Below are positions 50,324-59,018 of a stretch of 59,246 bases of DNA, piece after piece. Below the pieces are notes generated by a model, which saw only the letters and a list, made by a program, of their open reading frames with translations, did not search any database and was not told the origin of the DNA. The stretch is from Planctomycetota bacterium (GTDB lineage Bacteria > Planctomycetota > UBA8742 > JACQVU01 > JANLHZ01). Location of the stretch: assembly GCA_024653775.1 (NCBI GenBank), contig JANLHZ010000016.1, forward strand, positions 1 to 59,246, read 5' to 3'. The position numbers and the translations under genes are program-made. Position 1 is the first letter of the stretch, and each line of letters begins with the position of its first letter.

Positions 50324-52900
50324 ATGGAATTTCGGGAACCACTGTTTTTGCTGCTGCTCGTCTTTCCCGCGGGGTTTTATTATCTGCGTGCGCGGGCAAC
50401 TAAAAAATCGCCTTCTATGCACTACGGTCTGAAGAGCCTGCTGCTCGCGTTCGCGCTTACCGCGCTAGCGCTCGCGAAGCCAGAGATAGACCTCATCGAA
50501 GGTCCGAGAAAGATAGCGCTGCTTTTCGACGTCAGCCACAGCGCGTTCGACAGAATCGACGTGGCGCGGGAACTCGAAACCCTCGCGACCTCCGGAAGGC
50601 TCCGGCAGGATGATATCATCAGCGTGACTCTTTTTGCCGGCTGGTCGCGGACCATTCTGAGCGGCGAGCGCCTTTCGGAAGCGCCGTCGAAACTGCCGAC
50701 GCCGCTTCCGAACATAGCGGGCGGTGCGACGAACTTCGCGTCAGCACTGGAAGAAATTCCCCCGGACGCGGACTTCGCGATCGTCTTCACCGACGGCGCG
50801 TTCACTCATTCGCGGTCCGAGACGGCGGCCGCTACGAGGTTTGCCGCTCAGAAGGATACTCCGGAACTTCATTTCGTCTGGAGCGACCTTAGAAGGTTCG
50901 ACGCGCGGATCGCGGACATCGTCGCGCCACTGAAAGTGAATCCGTCGGAGACGTTCGCGGTGGAGGTCGAGCTGATTGCGAGCGATTCCTGCGAGGCGAT
51001 CCTGACGGCGAGTTCGCGCGAAAGCGGAGCAGAAATCTTCAGGCGGAAAATCGACCTCGCGCCCGACGCCCAGACACGAGCGATCCTGAATTTCACAGCT
51101 CCGGAGTCGGGGTTCGTCGAACTCGAGTTCCGAATCGACCCTTCGGACGAAAATCCGGAGCATCGCGAGTCCGGGCACTATCTGGCGAATAACGTAGGGA
51201 GCGTTACGATTCTCGTCCGATCGGAGGTTCGGAACGTGCTGCTTTTTTCGAGCCTGGAGGACAGCCAGATTCAGCGCGCGCTCGAAAGCAGCGTCTCGCG
51301 GAACGTCGTCGTGCGCAGAAGTTCGGGCGCCGCGCTCGAAGTTTCGCTCGCGGACCTCATTATCGTCGAGGACTATCCCGCGGACAAAATCCCACTGGAA
51401 ACCATGGAGTCCATCGTGAACTGCGCCTTCCGGGAAGGTTGCGGATTTCTGATGCTCGGCGCGGGGGGCGCGTTCGCTCCCGGAGGCTACGCGGATACGA
51501 TCGTCGAGGAAAGGCTGCTCCCCGTCAAGTGCGCACGGGACGATCGCAGGCTGAACGTACTTCTGCTGCTTGACGTCAGCTCGAGCATGAGCGAGCCGCT
51601 CGCCGGCGCATCCCGCAGCGCGACCAGATTCGACGTCCTCCGCGCGGCGGTAGGCTCGCTCTCGGCGAAACTTCTCCCCGGCGACGGAATCGGGCTGATC
51701 ACTTTCGCTGGCCGGGCTGATTTCCCCGCGGGAAGATCGTTCGTCCCGATGAGCAATCGAGCCGAGATTTCCGCCGGGCTGTCCGCGGTACGTCCGTTCG
51801 GGCCCACGGACGTGCGTCCGGCTCTCGGTCCCGCAAAGTCCATGCTCGAAGGCTCGGACGCGCCGCTGAACCACGTCGTACTGATCACCGACGGAAGGCA
51901 GCTTGCGGAAATCGGGGACGCGAACGCCAGGCTCGAAGCGTTCTTCCGCGAAACCCTTGACCTCGGCGCGTCCATCACCGTGCTTTCGGTAGACGACGCT
52001 CCGACCCTCGATTATTCCGCACTGTCCGGGAATCCAGACGCGAACGTACTCGACGCGACCATTGAACGGATTCCGGAGCTTCTCCTTGAAGACATTCGCA
52101 AAAAACGAAGTTATTTCGAGCCGGAGCCGGGGAACGCGCGGCTTGAAAACGCGGTGGCGGGTTTCGAGGACGCGCCGGGAATAGAAGCGAAGGCCGGGGA
52201 GATCGTCACTAGCGCGCGAAGGGAAGAAGGCGTTCTCATCTACAGCGTGGAAAAGGACGATCTGCCGCTGGTCGCTATCAGGCGCGTCGGCGCAGGGATT
52301 TCCGGAGCGATCCTGCTCGACCCGTCCGACAAAAACATGGCGGGCGAACTCGCCTTCGACCGAAACTGGAACGTCTTCCTCCAGAATTTCATACTCCGCC
52401 TGATTCGCGACCACTCCGAAAATCAACCTGAAATCGAGGCGCGCGAGAACTCGCAGGACGACAGTACGCTCGATCTCGTCATCACGTTCGATCACGCCGA
52501 GCAGGCTCCGGAGGAAAGAATGTTCGTCAGGCTCACGCCGATTGGGACCGGCGGGCCGGGAGAAGTATTCCCGCTGATCAGGGAAAGCGCGACGAGATTC
52601 GAGGTTCATAGCGTTCCGGCTTCCGCTACTGGTAGGCTTGCGGTGGTAGAATCCGCGTCCGGAGCCGTGATCGTCCGCACGGTGATCTCCGGCAGGCTTG
52701 CGCGGGAGTTCTTTGAACTCGCCCCCAGGCAGATGGAAATCCAGACGCTGGCGTCGCTCTCCGGAGGCGCCGTAGTGAAGGACGCGCGGGCCGTGCGAAT
52801 TCGCAACAGCGAAAGCGCAGCAGCTTACGGTCTCGATTCCGCGCTCTTTGGCGCCGCGATTCTGTCCCTGCTTTTCTGGTGGTTGCGCAGAGCAAGATAA
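50324..52900 (+). CDS. Double-VWA membrane protein (BatA/glutamine-amidotransferase-like)
   Basis: An 858-residue membrane protein. Two N-terminal membrane helices (about 5-25 and 35-52) are followed by a first VWA domain with the MIDAS-like DVSHS (about residue 69), an intervening beta-region, and a second VWA with LLLLDVSSSMSE (DxSxS, about 410-421). A flanking segment (NVLLFSSLEDSQ...LIIVEDYPADK...FLMLGAGGAFAPGGY) is of the glutamine-amidotransferase-like DUF1355 type. A last helix precedes the basic C-terminus WWLRRAR. TAGAAT (50312-50317) is six bases before the ATG. Such proteins are usual in Planctomycetota but their role is unsettled. Confidence 0.85.
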   Translation: MEFREPLFLLLLVFPAGFYYLRARATKKSPSMHYGLKSLLLAFALTALALAKPEIDLIEGPRKIALLFDVSHSAFDRIDVARELETLATSGRLRQDDIISVTLFAGWSRTILSGERLSEAPSKLPTPLPNIAGGATNFASALEEIPPDADFAIVFTDGAFTHSRSETAAATRFAAQKDTPELHFVWSDLRRFDARIADIVAPLKVNPSETFAVEVELIASDSCEAILTASSRESGAEIFRRKIDLAPDAQTRAILNFTAPESGFVELEFRIDPSDENPEHRESGHYLANNVGSVTILVRSEVRNVLLFSSLEDSQIQRALESSVSRNVVVRRSSGAALEVSLADLIIVEDYPADKIPLETMESIVNCAFREGCGFLMLGAGGAFAPGGYADTIVEERLLPVKCARDDRRLNVLLLLDVSSSMSEPLAGASRSATRFDVLRAAVGSLSAKLLPGDGIGLITFAGRADFPAGRSFVPMSNRAEISAGLSAVRPFGPTDVRPALGPAKSMLEGSDAPLNHVVLITDGRQLAEIGDANARLEAFFRETLDLGASITVLSVDDAPTLDYSALSGNPDANVLDATIERIPELLLEDIRKKRSYFEPEPGNARLENAVAGFEDAPGIEAKAGEIVTSARREEGVLIYSVEKDDLPLVAIRRVGAGISGAILLDPSDKNMAGELAFDRNWNVFLQNFILRLIRDHSENQPEIEARENSQDDSTLDLVITFDHAEQAPEERMFVRLTPIGTGGPGEVFPLIRESATRFEVHSVPASATGRLAVVESASGAVIVRTVISGRLAREFFELAPRQMEIQTLASLSGGAVVKDARAVRIRNSESAAAYGLDSALFGAAILSLLFWWLRRAR

Positions 52901-52986: not shown

Positions 52987-53036
52987 TGTATGCGAGTATC
53001 AGTGTGAAACGCAGATAAAGGATAATATAGATTATT
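52987..53036 (+). repeat. 50-bp inverted repeat, left copy, flanking the flagellin region
   Basis: The motif TGTATGCGAGTATCAGTGTG...AAACGCAGATAAAGGATAAT matches the inverse of 58969-59018 at 46 of 50 positions by eye. No other copy was noticed in the window. The surroundings of the two copies do not look alike beyond the 50 bp. Confidence 0.8.
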
Positions 53037-53042
53037 AACAGA

Positions 53043-53514
53043 CTATATGAAGTGCTGACCCGTGACGGGCCGTTTTCGGTGAGCGCTACGCAAAATGAAA
53101 TGCTCTGTTGATCCCACATCGAGCAGAATCCAGCCATCCCGGCAGTGATCGGAGAAAACTTCAAATACTCCCGACGAAACTACCGGCGCCTTCGCAATCT
53201 TCTCTCTGAGTGAGGTTGTCGAAAAAGTGCCGGGGACTTCAACCGTCTGACACTCCGATGCCTGGAATCGACTTCTTGCGCAACTTTAGACGAGAAAGTC
53301 CCCGGCACTTGTAGTTTCCGGTCCTTATCAGGTAGCCCCTGAGTAACTGAAATCGAGGATGCGGGCGCTAAGATAATTTTGTTTTTAAGCTCAAGATCGT
53401 AAGGCGCGCCGCCGATTATATGGATGACGAACTTTTGTTTCTTCCAATCCTTAGCGATTGTCTGAACGCGTTGTTCGGACCGCTCTATCCCAGAACTCAG
53501 GATTTGAAGTAATC
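53043..53514 (-). pseudogene. Decayed gene upstream of flagellin, broken by a repeat
   Basis: Two convincing coding stretches on the minus strand in different frames. The first (53514 to about 53311) includes QTIAKDWKKQKFVIHIIGGAPYDLELK and ILAPASSISVTQGLPDKDRK. The second (about 53224 to 53043) reads SLREKIAKAPVVSSG and VFEVFSDHCRDGWILLDVGS and ends at TAG 53043-53045. The 86-bp palindromic repeat at 53225-53310 lies exactly between them. More coding-like sequence in another frame lies further 5' (KTLLITSNPEFWDRAVRT, near 53490-53550), implying an additional frameshift. I do not recognise the family. Confidence 0.5.
53225..53310. repeat. REP-like element with 15-bp perfect inverted ends
   Basis: AAGTGCCGGGGACTT (53225-53239) is perfectly inverted at 53296-53310, with a 56-base loop. 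It separates the two halves of the decayed gene. The palindrome resembles REP sequences mobilised by IS200-like RAYT transposases, but no RAYT gene is in the window. Confidence 0.75.
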
Positions 53515-53704: not shown

Positions 53705-56700
53705 TTGAGCCTCAACATACAGAGCAACTACCTTCTTGACGTCGCCCGCCAGGCGTTCGGAAAGAACAGCGCCCTGCGGGATCGGTCTCTCGAGCGAATG
53801 TCCACTGGACTCCGCATCAACCGCGCCAGCGACGACGTCGGCGGGATGGTGATGCACGAGAAGTTCCGCACCCGGATCGCGAGCCTGCAAACGTCCATCA
53901 GCAACGTGCTCTCGTCAGTGTCGCTCGTCCAGATTGCGGAAAGCGCGCTTGCGGAAATGGACGATCTGCTGAACCAGCTCCGCGGCGTGTTCGTCGAGAG
54001 TCAGAATCTTCCGTCTTCGAGTTCTCAGAAGGGCGCCGCGGCCCAGAGGCGGATCGACGATATTCTGGACGCGATCGACAGAATTTCGTCCACGACCCGC
54101 GGCTTCGGGAAGAACATCCTCGACGGCACGCTCGGAAGGGAAATTACTTTCGTGGGCGACCTCAGCGTCATCGGCGGGACGAAAATCGATATTCCCGAAG
54201 GCAGCCGTCTGTCGCTCGGCGAGCACAAACTCATTTCGTCGCAGGTCGCGATCGTCAGCGACATCAATAACGACGGCATCGCGATCTACAACCAGAACAT
54301 GCTAGGCGAAGGCGGAAGGCTCACCGACGCAAGCGACGCGGGAGGACTTCCGTTCCTTTCGCCGATTTTCAATTCCGCCACGAAGACCGTCTACTTCGCC
54401 GGGTCGGACGGAACCCTGCAATCGCGGCATGAAAGGGACACCGGAAATTCAGTCACGCTGACGAACCCCGCCAAGACCGGGATTATGGGCGGCGACGATC
54501 CGACGCTCGTAACGGACATCCACGCGCTTTCGAACACCCAGCTCGTCTACGCGAACGATGTCGCGGGAGAAAGCTACCTCTTCACCCAGAGCGCAGGCGC
54601 GGCGGCGACTCAGATCAACTTCCCGAGGCTCTACAACCCCACCGGGACGTCCTCCGCAGTCGTCGCGGAATACGACGCCGGGGGGCTGTTCAACTCGTCG
54701 TTCGCGTATCCGGGCGGAGTTTCGAGCCTGACGAGCGTCACCACCGACGGCACACTGCTCTACGGCATTCGTCAGGACGGACTCATCGTTTCGTTCGACA
54801 CCGCGGGCGGTTCCGCGCAAACCTTCGCGTATCAGGACGACACCGGCACCGGGTTGACGCTTCCACTCGACGCGAAGGCTATTGCCTACGTCCCGGCGGG
54901 CGCGCCGGGAGTCGCGGCGAACAGTCTTTTCGTCTACGATCCGACGCAGGGGTTTGCGAGGGTCGAGCTGAACACGGGAACGTCCACCGCGCACATAATG
55001 GACGTCAGCAGCTTCCTCGAAGACTCCCCCCCGTTTACTGTAACGGAGTCGGGCGATGCGACTCCGGATTCCTTCACGCTTTCGAGCGGCCCGGACATCG
55101 TCGATCTGAACGCGTTCACGACAACCGGAACGATCACCGTAACCGCGACGGACGTCAACACCAACGGCTCCATAGACTGGGTGACGAGCGGTCCCGCGGA
55201 CTATTCCGGGCAGAACATTCTCACCGCCTCGGGAGGCGGAGTCATCGACATAAAGAGCAACAGCGTCGGCACCGTCGCGATAACCCAGACCATCCTCGAA
55301 AGTCAGACTGGCGGATTCCTCCAGGGCGCGAGCGGCGCGATCACCGACACCACGGGCTGGGCGAATCATTATATGACCGCGACGATAGACAAGGAAGGAG
55401 CCTCGCCGCTCACCGCGAACGTGGTGATCGCGGACGGCGCGGGAGCCACGGGCGCGGACATCGCGACTTCACTCCAGAACGCCATCGATCCGGGGATGGC
55501 AAGGGCGCTCGTCACCTTCGACGGCGGCACGAACAGCTACAAGATAACTTCCCTCGCGACGGGCGCGACTTCCGAGATCACCCTTACGGACGGATCGCAG
55601 GACGCAGTCGTTTCTTCGGGAGCGACGGTTCCCGGGTCGGACAGACTCGTAACACACGGACAACTCCGCGTTACTATAAACGGCGCGGCGACCGACGTCA
55701 CAATCAGCAACACCTCGATTCCGTCGGCTCTGACCGCGATAAACACTCAGCTCGGCTCCTCCATTTTCGCGTTCAGCGCGCTTAAAGTCGTCGGCACGAA
55801 AACCGCCGCTTCGTCCGCGGAAGACGTCGTGCCGGAGGTCACGGTCCAAAGCCTCGGAGTTACCGCCGGCGAGACTGTCAGTATCGCGGGCGCGTCTTCG
55901 ACCGACATCAGCGCGCTCACGTCTGGAGCCACGTTCAAGGTGGCGATGACCAACGCCGGCGTCGCCACGTTCCAGAGCATAACGCTCGATCACGTCAGTT
56001 TCGACCTCTCGAACTCCGCCGGCATCGCAGCCGCGATGGAAAGCGCGATAGAGAACAAGTTCTCCGGGCTTTCAACGACGGACTTCGCGGTGACGTTCGA
56101 CGGAAGCAGCTACAAATTCGCCACGACGCCGCAGGCTGGAGTATTCACTTCGGGCGGCGTCGAAATAAGATTCGAGGAGGACGGCTCGTCCACCGCGTTC
56201 CAGCTCGGACTAACGAGCACCGCGGCCAGCGGAGACAGAACGAATTTCTCGCAGGTAACGAGAGGCGCGGGAGATCTGTTCGTCAACTGGCAGTTCGGCG
56301 GCGCGGGCGCAAGCAAGACGGGCACCGGAAAGCACGGCCTGACAAGCGATCTGAAACTCACAGGCGCCGGCGTAACGTCAGACTCCGGAGGCATCGCGGT
56401 AGGCGACAAGTTCACCGTCAAGATCGCGCTGATTCCCCGTGACTTCACCGACATGACGTTCAACGGAACGAACCTCGTCGCGTCCTCCCCCACTGCGACC
56501 GTCGGGAGGCTTTACAGCACCTCGACGCTCCAGCCGACGGGAGGGACGATCAATTTCGCGAACGCAGTTCAGACCGGGACGGAAGCGGTCGCCTACGACG
56601 GGACTAACTACTACGTCGAATCGCCCGGAACTCCGTTCATCTACGCGCTCGATTCCGCGGGCACGATAAAGAACGTGATTCTGAAGCCCGAGTCCGCGGA

Positions 56701-58681
56701 CGTAAACGACGAGCTTGGAATGGCATTCAGCGGCGGTCTTCTCTACGTCACGAACGACTCCACCTCCGAAGTCTACGCGATCGATCCCTTCTCAGCACAG
56801 GGACAGAAGGTGATCGTCGAGGGCAATTCGACCTTTTCGACTCTGAAGCTCAAATCGTCGAACACGGGCACGGATCAGGCCTACGCGCCAGTCGTAAACT
56901 CCGCCGGGACGTACATCTTCTACGAACTTTACGACGGCGCGAGCCGATCGCTTATCGCGCACCAGCGCTCCACGGGACTCGAACACGTCGTGCTGACCGA
57001 CAATTCGCCGTTTACGCCCGCGACCGCCGCGCCAACCATCGGGACCGCCGCGGAGTCGCACTTCCAGACCCGCTCGAACGCAAGCGGTTCAAGAATCGTT
57101 CTCGTCGAGGAAGGGAACGTCAAGGTGTATGACGTCGACGTCGCGGGCGGCACGACCACTCTCGTCAGCGACCTCGGCGCGGGGGACAATCCGGAAATCG
57201 ATTCGTCCGGAACCTACGTCGTTTTCGAAAGGCCGGATACGAACCCGACGGACCTTTTCTTCGCCTCCGCGGACGGATCGTTCGCGCCCGTGAACTTCAC
57301 CGCGAGCGAGAACCCGGACAGCGGCCCCGAGTCGGGCGGAGTACGCGACGGAAACGAAGTCACGGGCGGCTCGTCCGCGAGCTTCTCCACAGGCGGAGAT
57401 CGCATAGCGTTCATCTCGAACGGCGACGTCTACGTCTATCGCACGACGAACCCGCTGACGGGGCAGGTAGCGACTCCGATTCCGATAAAGCCGTCGGACG
57501 TCGATCTTGACGCGGAACTCGACAACCTCGCGAGACCCACCGGGCCGAATCCGAACTCGCTTTTCACGAAGACGCCGACCATCGACACGTTCAACACGAT
57601 GACTCGCGAGACGTTCACCATCAAAATACTGACCGACCCGGACGAAGAGTACGCGGGCACGTTCTCCGTGAATGGCGACGAATCCGGCTCTCACGCGGAC
57701 GGAGTCATCGGAAAGGAGTACGTCACTTCCGGCGGCGTCGGCGGAACGGGAATGGGACTTCGGTTCACGGTGAACGACGACGGGCAGTACACCGTCGGCG
57801 ACGAATTCCTGATCGACGTCGACGTCGTCGCCGCGATAAGGCTCGACGGCGGACCGACGCAGCTCGCCACCGCCGACAGAACGCTGCTTTTCGAGGACGA
57901 GTACGGGCAGAGAGTAGCGGTGAGTTTCGCGTCGTACATTCCTTCCGGGAATAACGAGGTTCGGTTCCGCGTCGAGGGCGAGGAGCAGTTCCAGACGCAC
58001 ATCGAATCCGGACTCCCAGGAGGCCAGGAAGACATCGTCATAGATAGCTATTCATCGAAATCACTCGGACTGGACGGCATGAAAGTTACTGACAGCATCC
58101 AGTCGGCCTGGACGAATCTGACGGTGAGTTCGCAGAACGCGGGGACGAGCGACGAGCTTGAAATCTTCCTCGCGCCGGAGGTCAGGAGAGACGACTTCGT
58201 GCCGAGGAAGGAAACCTACAGACTCACCTTCAAAGATGAAAACACCTTCGACGTCACGGGAACCATCAGCGGAACCATCGCGAAGAACCTGCAGTACTAC
58301 GAAGGGCACAAGATCGAGTTCCGCGGAATCGAACTCACTCTCACCGGCAAAGCCGAGGCGGGAGATTACGTCACCTTCGGCTACGACGGCGAACTCGGAA
58401 CGCTCGCGAAGATCGACCTCGCGAAGGATCGCATCGCGGACGCGCGGGCCGAACTCGGCGCGAAGGCGTTTTCGCTCGAGAACTGGGCGAACACTCAGAC
58501 CCAGCAGCGCTTCAACTTCGTCAAATCCGACAGCGACATAGGCGACGCAGACATGGCGGCAGAATTCACCAACTACACGCGCAATCAACTCCTCGCAGGA
58601 CAATTCCATCTAACCTCGACACTGTCGCAGATATCGTCGGAGCGGATGATGGAACTTCTCGGGCCGAGTCTGCTGCTCTGA
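53705..58681 (+). CDS. Giant flagellin with beta-propeller-like inserts
   Basis: A 1658-residue flagellin; typical flagellins have 270-600 residues. The N-terminal D0/D1 (1 to about 160) is normal: SLNIQSNYLLDVARQAFGK, MSTGLRINRASDDVGGM. The C-terminal D1/D0 (about 1560-1658) reads LAKDRIADARAELGAKAF, ADMAAEFTNYTRNQLL and ends LLGPSLLL. Between lie about 1400 residues: a first region with WD40/TolB-like repeats (about 175-440), a middle with FlgIN-type motifs (for example SLQNAIDPGM...NSYKITSLATG), and a second TolB-like region (about 925-1245; IYALDSAGTIKN, IDSSGTYVVFER, DRIAFISNGDVYVYR). The start is TTG 53705; no in-frame ATG or strong ribosome site precedes it. The neighbouring flagellar genes are elsewhere. 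Confidence 0.88.
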   Translation: MSLNIQSNYLLDVARQAFGKNSALRDRSLERMSTGLRINRASDDVGGMVMHEKFRTRIASLQTSISNVLSSVSLVQIAESALAEMDDLLNQLRGVFVESQNLPSSSSQKGAAAQRRIDDILDAIDRISSTTRGFGKNILDGTLGREITFVGDLSVIGGTKIDIPEGSRLSLGEHKLISSQVAIVSDINNDGIAIYNQNMLGEGGRLTDASDAGGLPFLSPIFNSATKTVYFAGSDGTLQSRHERDTGNSVTLTNPAKTGIMGGDDPTLVTDIHALSNTQLVYANDVAGESYLFTQSAGAAATQINFPRLYNPTGTSSAVVAEYDAGGLFNSSFAYPGGVSSLTSVTTDGTLLYGIRQDGLIVSFDTAGGSAQTFAYQDDTGTGLTLPLDAKAIAYVPAGAPGVAANSLFVYDPTQGFARVELNTGTSTAHIMDVSSFLEDSPPFTVTESGDATPDSFTLSSGPDIVDLNAFTTTGTITVTATDVNTNGSIDWVTSGPADYSGQNILTASGGGVIDIKSNSVGTVAITQTILESQTGGFLQGASGAITDTTGWANHYMTATIDKEGASPLTANVVIADGAGATGADIATSLQNAIDPGMARALVTFDGGTNSYKITSLATGATSEITLTDGSQDAVVSSGATVPGSDRLVTHGQLRVTINGAATDVTISNTSIPSALTAINTQLGSSIFAFSALKVVGTKTAASSAEDVVPEVTVQSLGVTAGETVSIAGASSTDISALTSGATFKVAMTNAGVATFQSITLDHVSFDLSNSAGIAAAMESAIENKFSGLSTTDFAVTFDGSSYKFATTPQAGVFTSGGVEIRFEEDGSSTAFQLGLTSTAASGDRTNFSQVTRGAGDLFVNWQFGGAGASKTGTGKHGLTSDLKLTGAGVTSDSGGIAVGDKFTVKIALIPRDFTDMTFNGTNLVASSPTATVGRLYSTSTLQPTGGTINFANAVQTGTEAVAYDGTNYYVESPGTPFIYALDSAGTIKNVILKPESADVNDELGMAFSGGLLYVTNDSTSEVYAIDPFSAQGQKVIVEGNSTFSTLKLKSSNTGTDQAYAPVVNSAGTYIFYELYDGASRSLIAHQRSTGLEHVVLTDNSPFTPATAAPTIGTAAESHFQTRSNASGSRIVLVEEGNVKVYDVDVAGGTTTLVSDLGAGDNPEIDSSGTYVVFERPDTNPTDLFFASADGSFAPVNFTASENPDSGPESGGVRDGNEVTGGSSASFSTGGDRIAFISNGDVYVYRTTNPLTGQVATPIPIKPSDVDLDAELDNLARPTGPNPNSLFTKTPTIDTFNTMTRETFTIKILTDPDEEYAGTFSVNGDESGSHADGVIGKEYVTSGGVGGTGMGLRFTVNDDGQYTVGDEFLIDVDVVAAIRLDGGPTQLATADRTLLFEDEYGQRVAVSFASYIPSGNNEVRFRVEGEEQFQTHIESGLPGGQEDIVIDSYSSKSLGLDGMKVTDSIQSAWTNLTVSSQNAGTSDELEIFLAPEVRRDDFVPRKETYRLTFKDENTFDVTGTISGTIAKNLQYYEGHKIEFRGIELTLTGKAEAGDYVTFGYDGELGTLAKIDLAKDRIADARAELGAKAFSLENWANTQTQQRFNFVKSDSDIGDADMAAEFTNYTRNQLLAGQFHLTSTLSQISSERMMELLGPSLLL

Positions 58682-58968: not shown

Positions 58969-59018
58969 AATAATGTATGTTATCCTTTATCTACGTTTCA
59001 CACTGATACTCGTATACA
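58969..59018 (-). repeat. 50-bp inverted repeat, right copy
   Basis: The reverse complement matches 52987-53036 at 46 of 50 positions. The pair is about 5.9 kb apart in opposite orientation and encloses the decayed gene and the flagellin. Confidence 0.8.

Follow-up and report, generated by a model that had tools for sequence, protein, structure and literature searches.

Propeller domains are common ligand-binding folds, and sialidases are propellers. Among flagellins, the closest described systems are the giant flagellins, which exceed 1000 residues, keep intact D0/D1 domains and carry a very large insert, and planctomycetes are among the lineages listed for them (Thomson et al. 2018, PMC6248924). 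The giant flagellins studied closely have duplicated DE domains and a DX insert and no recognised enzyme domain, and a text search of that paper finds no mention of the β-propeller. Flagellins fold out and back, and the same work left open whether large inserts are tandem continuous domains or discontinuous out-and-back domains (PMC6248924). A second group consists of flagellinolysins and other domain-bearing flagellins, in which a foreign folded domain occupies the hypervariable region; Table 1 of Eckhard et al. 2017 (PMC5595980) gives 10 Sialidase matches and 21 vWFA matches in the variable regions of flagellins, and its text never uses the word propeller. The precedent for a flagellin-borne propeller, these ten Sialidase matches, is thus thin. 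In addition, titles and abstract openings among the matches listed in our literature searches report no flagellin with a β-propeller, and those of the matches for flagellin and FG-GAP are unrelated; within the same titles and abstract openings no description of a nested propeller arrangement in a flagellin was found, subscription journals and most preprints lying outside the search.

The flagellin described here is encoded in the window, that is, the whole stretch of DNA analysed (59,246 nucleotides, contig JANLHZ010000016.1 of a groundwater-type Planctomycetota bacterium). It shares length, intact ends and a very large insert with the giant flagellins, but its insert appears to contain propeller blades. 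Like the domain-bearing flagellins it seems to hold a foreign fold in its hypervariable region, but it differs from the flagellinolysins in lacking HExxH and in having a PD40/NHL-type insert which is seemingly interleaved, not continuous. It resembles TolB/PD40 propellers in the blade sequence and spacing of one segment, but these blades sit in a flagellin, are split by another domain and are divergent, scoring below the Pfam cut-off. Its remaining blades would be of the type seen in NHL/YVTN propellers such as that of the archaeal surface-layer protein 1l0q, an example of a propeller used at the cell surface, but they are divided over two arms and their assignment is weak.

The gene and its product

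The gene is one intact reading frame on the plus strand of the window (Table 1). No in-frame ATG lies between the preceding stop codon and the TTG start, no clear ribosome-binding site was found, and scans for sigma-28 and sigma-70 promoters gave no match. Flagellin_N and Flagellin_C both exceed the Pfam cut-offs, nothing else in the protein does so, and the best PDB matches by phmmer are flagellins. The initial annotation had described a flagellin of 1658 residues with normal D0/D1 domains separated by about 1400 residues, and this is borne out by the intact frame and by the Pfam matches at both ends, which are about 1420 residues apart. The length exceeds the 1000 residues that mark a giant flagellin. 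The protein contains no cysteine and has a net charge of -95. Outside the core, the returning conserved beta domain is the best conserved part in family alignments, and it gives a weak flgK_1st_1 match (E 0.25). FlhA of the flagellar type III export apparatus is encoded in the host genome G000 (E 2.8e-251), which is 5.4 Mb in size, 96% complete and has 12 Flagellin_N matches.

Table 1. Features of the giant flagellin gene, with positions in the window
Feature	Residues	Position	Strand	Basis or remark
Giant flagellin gene		53705..58681	+	1658 aa, TTG start; ortholog G001:C515
N-terminal D0/D1, Flagellin_N	5-142	53717..54130	+	Pfam E 2.9e-20
Outgoing beta linker, conserved 'LGEHKL..V.IV' hairpin	143-200	54131..54304	+	alignments of four family members
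Outgoing PD40-like blades, ~2.5	201-326	54305..54682	+	hhalign to PD40
Outgoing NHL-like blades, ~2	330-437	54692..55015	+	hhalign to NHL
Distal D3-like repeats	438-894	55016..56386	+	without propeller signal; tandemly expanded in paralog
Returning NHL-like blades, ~3	895-1029	56387..56791	+	hhalign to NHL
Returning PD40/TolB-like blades, ~4.5	1021-1265	56765..57499	+	hhalign to PD40
Returning conserved beta domain, D2/FlgK-like	1285-1565	57557..58399	+	alignments
C-terminal D1/D0, Flagellin_C	1567-1633	58403..58603	+	Pfam E 2.5e-6

The DNA around the gene has features of its own. A 50-bp inverted repeat (window 52987-53036 and 58969-59018, 92% complementary, 5.9 kb apart) flanks the flagellin gene. 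Its core GTATCAGTGTGAAACG has about 19 copies in the genome, which marks the repeat as dispersed and perhaps as a small mobile element. Upstream of the gene, at 53225-53315, there is an inverted motif 'gtgccggggacttc ... gaaagtccccggcac' which is like a small palindromic repeat element, and the flagellin's immediate upstream neighbour, at 50324-52900, encodes a protein of 858 aa in which a von Willebrand A domain (VWA_2) is present.

Family members and other flagellins of these genomes

The search for homologous flagellins with the same insert, which the initial annotation had proposed, gave a family of six members in three planctomycete genomes (G000, G001 and G055). The ortholog is full length (33% identity over aa 19-1654, E 4e-159) and belongs to a Planctomycetota groundwater MAG of JACQVU01, the same order as the host. 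The host genome has a paralog (G000:C142, a 2102-aa frame), as does G001, where the gene is split by contig ends (C347/C243). Two remoter members of 1337 and 1394 aa are found in G055, from another class of the phylum; this genome is 8% contaminated and FlhA was not found in it, so the two genes could stem from another organism, and the one other genome of that class has no family member. Among 392 genomes of the phylum, the profile of the returning arm (strongly) or that of the outgoing arm finds only these three genomes. Furthermore, a scan of genome contigs led to a single groundwater MAG, with the ortholog and paralog already known and nothing more, and the viral contigs searched contained no relatives. 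In a D0/D1 tree the giant members, with long branches, do not resolve as a single clade. The tip of the 2102-aa paralog (L029 3517-4375 and 5241-5502) is made of tandem repeats with units of 276 bp and 60 bp, and expansion of these repeats can therefore alter the size of the subunit.

Smaller flagellins of these genomes also carry unusual outer regions. The 862-aa flagellin G000:C229 (L035 1901-4486) matches Pfam FG-GAP_3 in seven stretches (E 1.6e-42), and its outer domain is, judged by its repeats and DxNxDG-like motifs, a textbook seven-repeat FG-GAP (integrin-type) propeller. It has flagellin ends and a propeller outer domain as the giant flagellin would have, but it differs in its continuous repeats, Ca-binding-like motifs, length and unrelated blade type. 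By analogy it suggests that a flagellin can tolerate a propeller as its outer domain. In the 824-aa flagellin G000:C13 (L034 2407-4878, minus strand; hhalign 18-31%, one strong blade) the outer region looks like an unbroken run of about five NHL-like blades with a Flagellin_IN motif. Both flagellins had been picked to serve as negatives in the propeller scan and carry blades themselves, and consequently flagellin-borne propellers look like a repeated theme in the host genome. The initial annotation knew of no flagellin with propeller insertions, a statement which has to be qualified in view of the FG-GAP flagellin and the published Sialidase matches. Moreover, the 968-aa flagellin G000:C142:6970 (L033 1950-4853) has a weak reprolysin-like match, the motif HEVGHSLGL and, later, VMNPS, which looks like a Met-turn, making it a candidate metzincin-like enzymatic flagellin, unlike the gluzincin flagellinolysins. 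The 1002-aa flagellin G001:C349 (L036 1578-4583, minus strand) also has a weak reprolysin match.

Propeller sequence in the returning arm

The references for hhalign were ordinary propeller proteins of related planctomycetes, namely a PD40/TolB-like set and an NHL set. The returning PD40/TolB-like segment aligned with PD40 at 98% probability (E 3e-13) when four sequences were used and at 89% (E 2.6e-6) with only the window protein and its ortholog, reversed controls giving 2.8% and 0.3%, respectively; against NHL the four sequences gave 0.3%. The whole returning stretch of six sequences reached 97-98% against PD40, and the D3-like and C-side regions stayed at 0.1-0.5%. The returning NHL-like segment of four sequences gave 49% against NHL (E 2e-4), 0.1% when reversed and 0.3% against PD40.

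When the propeller part of the relative L055 was compared with the PDB by phmmer, all four matches were propellers: the TolB-like 2ojh (E 0.013), two acyl-peptide hydrolases, and PAM, whose NHL-type domain aligns with the NHL-like part. Phmmer and profile searches of the PDB with the window protein itself gave flagellins or non-propeller matches only. Pfam PD40 finds no match in the window protein at the gathering score and gives L055 16.7 bits, below the cut-off of 20.9. At the level of sequence, the presence of propeller blades in the returning stretch is confirmed beyond chance.

Three other readings of the variable region were rejected: WD40, since no WD40 family is among the Pfam matches up to E 10; sialidase, since the window protein has no Asp-box repeats; and metallopeptidase or flagellinolysin, since it has no HExxH. 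The initial annotation had spoken of WD40/TolB-like blades in two stretches. TolB/PD40 holds for the second stretch and true WD40 does not; the four motifs quoted as typical of both stretches are present, but all lie in the second (aa ~979-1250); and for the first stretch (aa ~201-437) a likeness to propellers emerges only with the help of distant relatives.

Mirrored blade order in the two arms

Against PD40, the outgoing PD40-like segment gave 86% with the G055 pair, 60% with four sequences and 14% with the pair that holds the window protein (window pair), reversed controls being 0.1-0.2%, and 0.1% against NHL with four sequences. The outgoing NHL-like segment gave 38% against NHL with four sequences (E 3e-4), 2.9% with the window pair and 0.1% when reversed, and 0.2% against PD40 with four sequences. 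The segment borders in these tests had been set by eye before any unsupervised scan, and for this reason a border-free sliding scan of 120 residues was run. From the N-terminal side it gave, for the G055 pair, PD40 (peak 83%), NHL (8.5%), nothing, NHL (10.6%) and PD40 (97%), and for the window pair PD40 (3.5%), NHL (2.7%), nothing, NHL (18.8%) and PD40 (83%), with reversed controls of at most 2.3%. Since the scan of the window pair is near background in the outgoing arm, the blade assignment there rests on the homologs. The blade order is mirrored, running PD40-like, NHL-like, D3-like repeats, NHL-like and PD40-like. It is clear in the G055 pair, whereas the outgoing arm of the window pair shows it only as a trace; the NHL typing of the blades is weak.

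Profile comparison of the outgoing with the returning arm gave 24-70% for PD40 blades and 7-18% for NHL blades as opposed to 0.1-1.1% for cross-type pairs, and in the distant relatives the first stretch matches its own returning blades at 70%. The two NHL arms, 38% and 49% singly, gave one continuous NHL alignment of 228 columns at 70% when joined, compared with 9-19% for wrongly joined arms, and the joined PD40 arms gave one PD40 alignment of 229 columns at 98.1%. Repeat proteins align in any register, so this joined-arm test is supportive, not decisive.

Structure prediction

AlphaFold2 models of aa 145-1296 (2 alignment rows, pLDDT 32) and aa 1017-1265 (3 alignment rows, pLDDT 39), whose additional rows came solely from related loci, are too low in confidence for a usable fold, so we infer ring closure and nesting. 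Foldseek with both models gave nearly all propellers, with low TM-scores (at most 0.25 for the shorter model); the first match was the TolB structure 7mx5 (E 2.9e-4) for one, and for model 1 it was PDB 1l0q, a YVTN surface-layer propeller (E 6.2e-4). Coming from low-confidence models, these matches carry little weight as support for a propeller.

A model of nested propellers and the role of the coat

Blade counts, which are our reading of the alignments, are 2.5 + 4.5 for the PD40-like and 2 + 3 for the NHL-like type (outgoing + returning), and the distant relatives have one PD40-like blade more (8 against 7). Full rings of each type arise only when both stretches are combined, and each stretch is mirrored in blade type; therefore the two separate propeller regions proposed in the initial annotation are probably wrong. 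Given the out-and-back fold of flagellins and the mirrored order, two nested discontinuous rings are the simplest reading. We consider it probable (about 0.6) that this is a filament-type giant flagellin bearing two nested discontinuous propellers, with about five NHL-like blades within about seven PD40-like ones, as a surface coat. The chain would leave D1 into the opening blades of the PD40/TolB-like propeller, form the first two blades of the NHL-like propeller and then the D3-like repeats at the tip; on its return it would close the NHL-like ring first and the PD40-like ring second. According to the alignments the third PD40-like blade may be split, the outgoing arm supplying strands a-b and the returning arm strands c-d. 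Unfolded subunits would pass along the hollow filament during export and D0/D1 would then polymerise; with two stacked propellers on every subunit, the filament would be thick, strongly acidic and coated with propellers. The wider statement, that propellers of two different families are nested with rings closed by the meeting arms and that the organism fields a flagellin set with FG-GAP, NHL-like and PD40 + NHL propellers and a metzincin-like member, has about an even chance of being right.

The coat would be bulky and possibly ligand-binding, and its role is most likely a putative binding of surfaces, polymers or neighbouring subunits, filament thickening or both, not catalysis; no catalytic motif was found in the window protein, which has neither Asp-box nor HExxH. 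The adhesion, ligand binding or shielding suggested in the initial annotation would be putative functions of this kind. A purely mechanical role, which fits any fold, is a strong competitor at a little less than even odds: the domains would only add bulk and bind no ligand, making the filament thick, or cross-linked through its outer domains, for swimming in sediment that is viscous or porous. Filaments of giant flagellins have a width of 30 nm or more (PMC6248924), and viscous-media motility in other bacteria needs outer-domain networks (PMC10256154). Across the family, sequence, blade number and tip repeats drift but the type of fold persists, which also suits mechanics, but the FG-GAP repeats and the metzincin-like motif in flagellins of the same genome suggest functional cargo.

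Alternative folds

Two separate continuous propellers, one per stretch with the D3-like repeats between them, are unlikely. Such an arrangement would accord with the blades found in both stretches and with the continuous NHL-like run of G000:C13, but neither stretch is uniform in blade type, the first, with about four blades of two types, falls short of a standard ring, and flagellins are known to fold out and back (PMC6248924). Rather less likely still is a propeller in the returning stretch only (aa ~900-1265), the first stretch being ordinary D2/D3-type beta structure with a weak compositional alignment; the low values of the window pair there (14% PD40, 3% NHL, at most 3.5% in the scan) would suit this, but the first stretch of the distant homologs reaches 86% against PD40 (0.1% reversed) and matches their own returning blades. 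That there is no propeller at all, only Ig-like modules with chance blade-like motifs, is very improbable, since the lack of one in AlphaFold2 models and in Pfam matches of the window protein stands against profile-profile probabilities of 89-98% (reversed at most 3%) and against the L055 and Foldseek matches, all or nearly all of them propellers.

Biological significance

From the mirrored blade order one would expect the discontinuous alternative to hold here for a repeat fold which normally closes on itself, and the question left by Thomson et al. 2018 thereby becomes directly testable with one protein. If nested rings are indeed formed, one flagellum would carry thousands of interleaved double propellers, which suggests that propellers can leave through the flagellum unfolded and nevertheless close into rings once exported, and that the flagella of some planctomycetes may serve as rods on which propeller domains are displayed.
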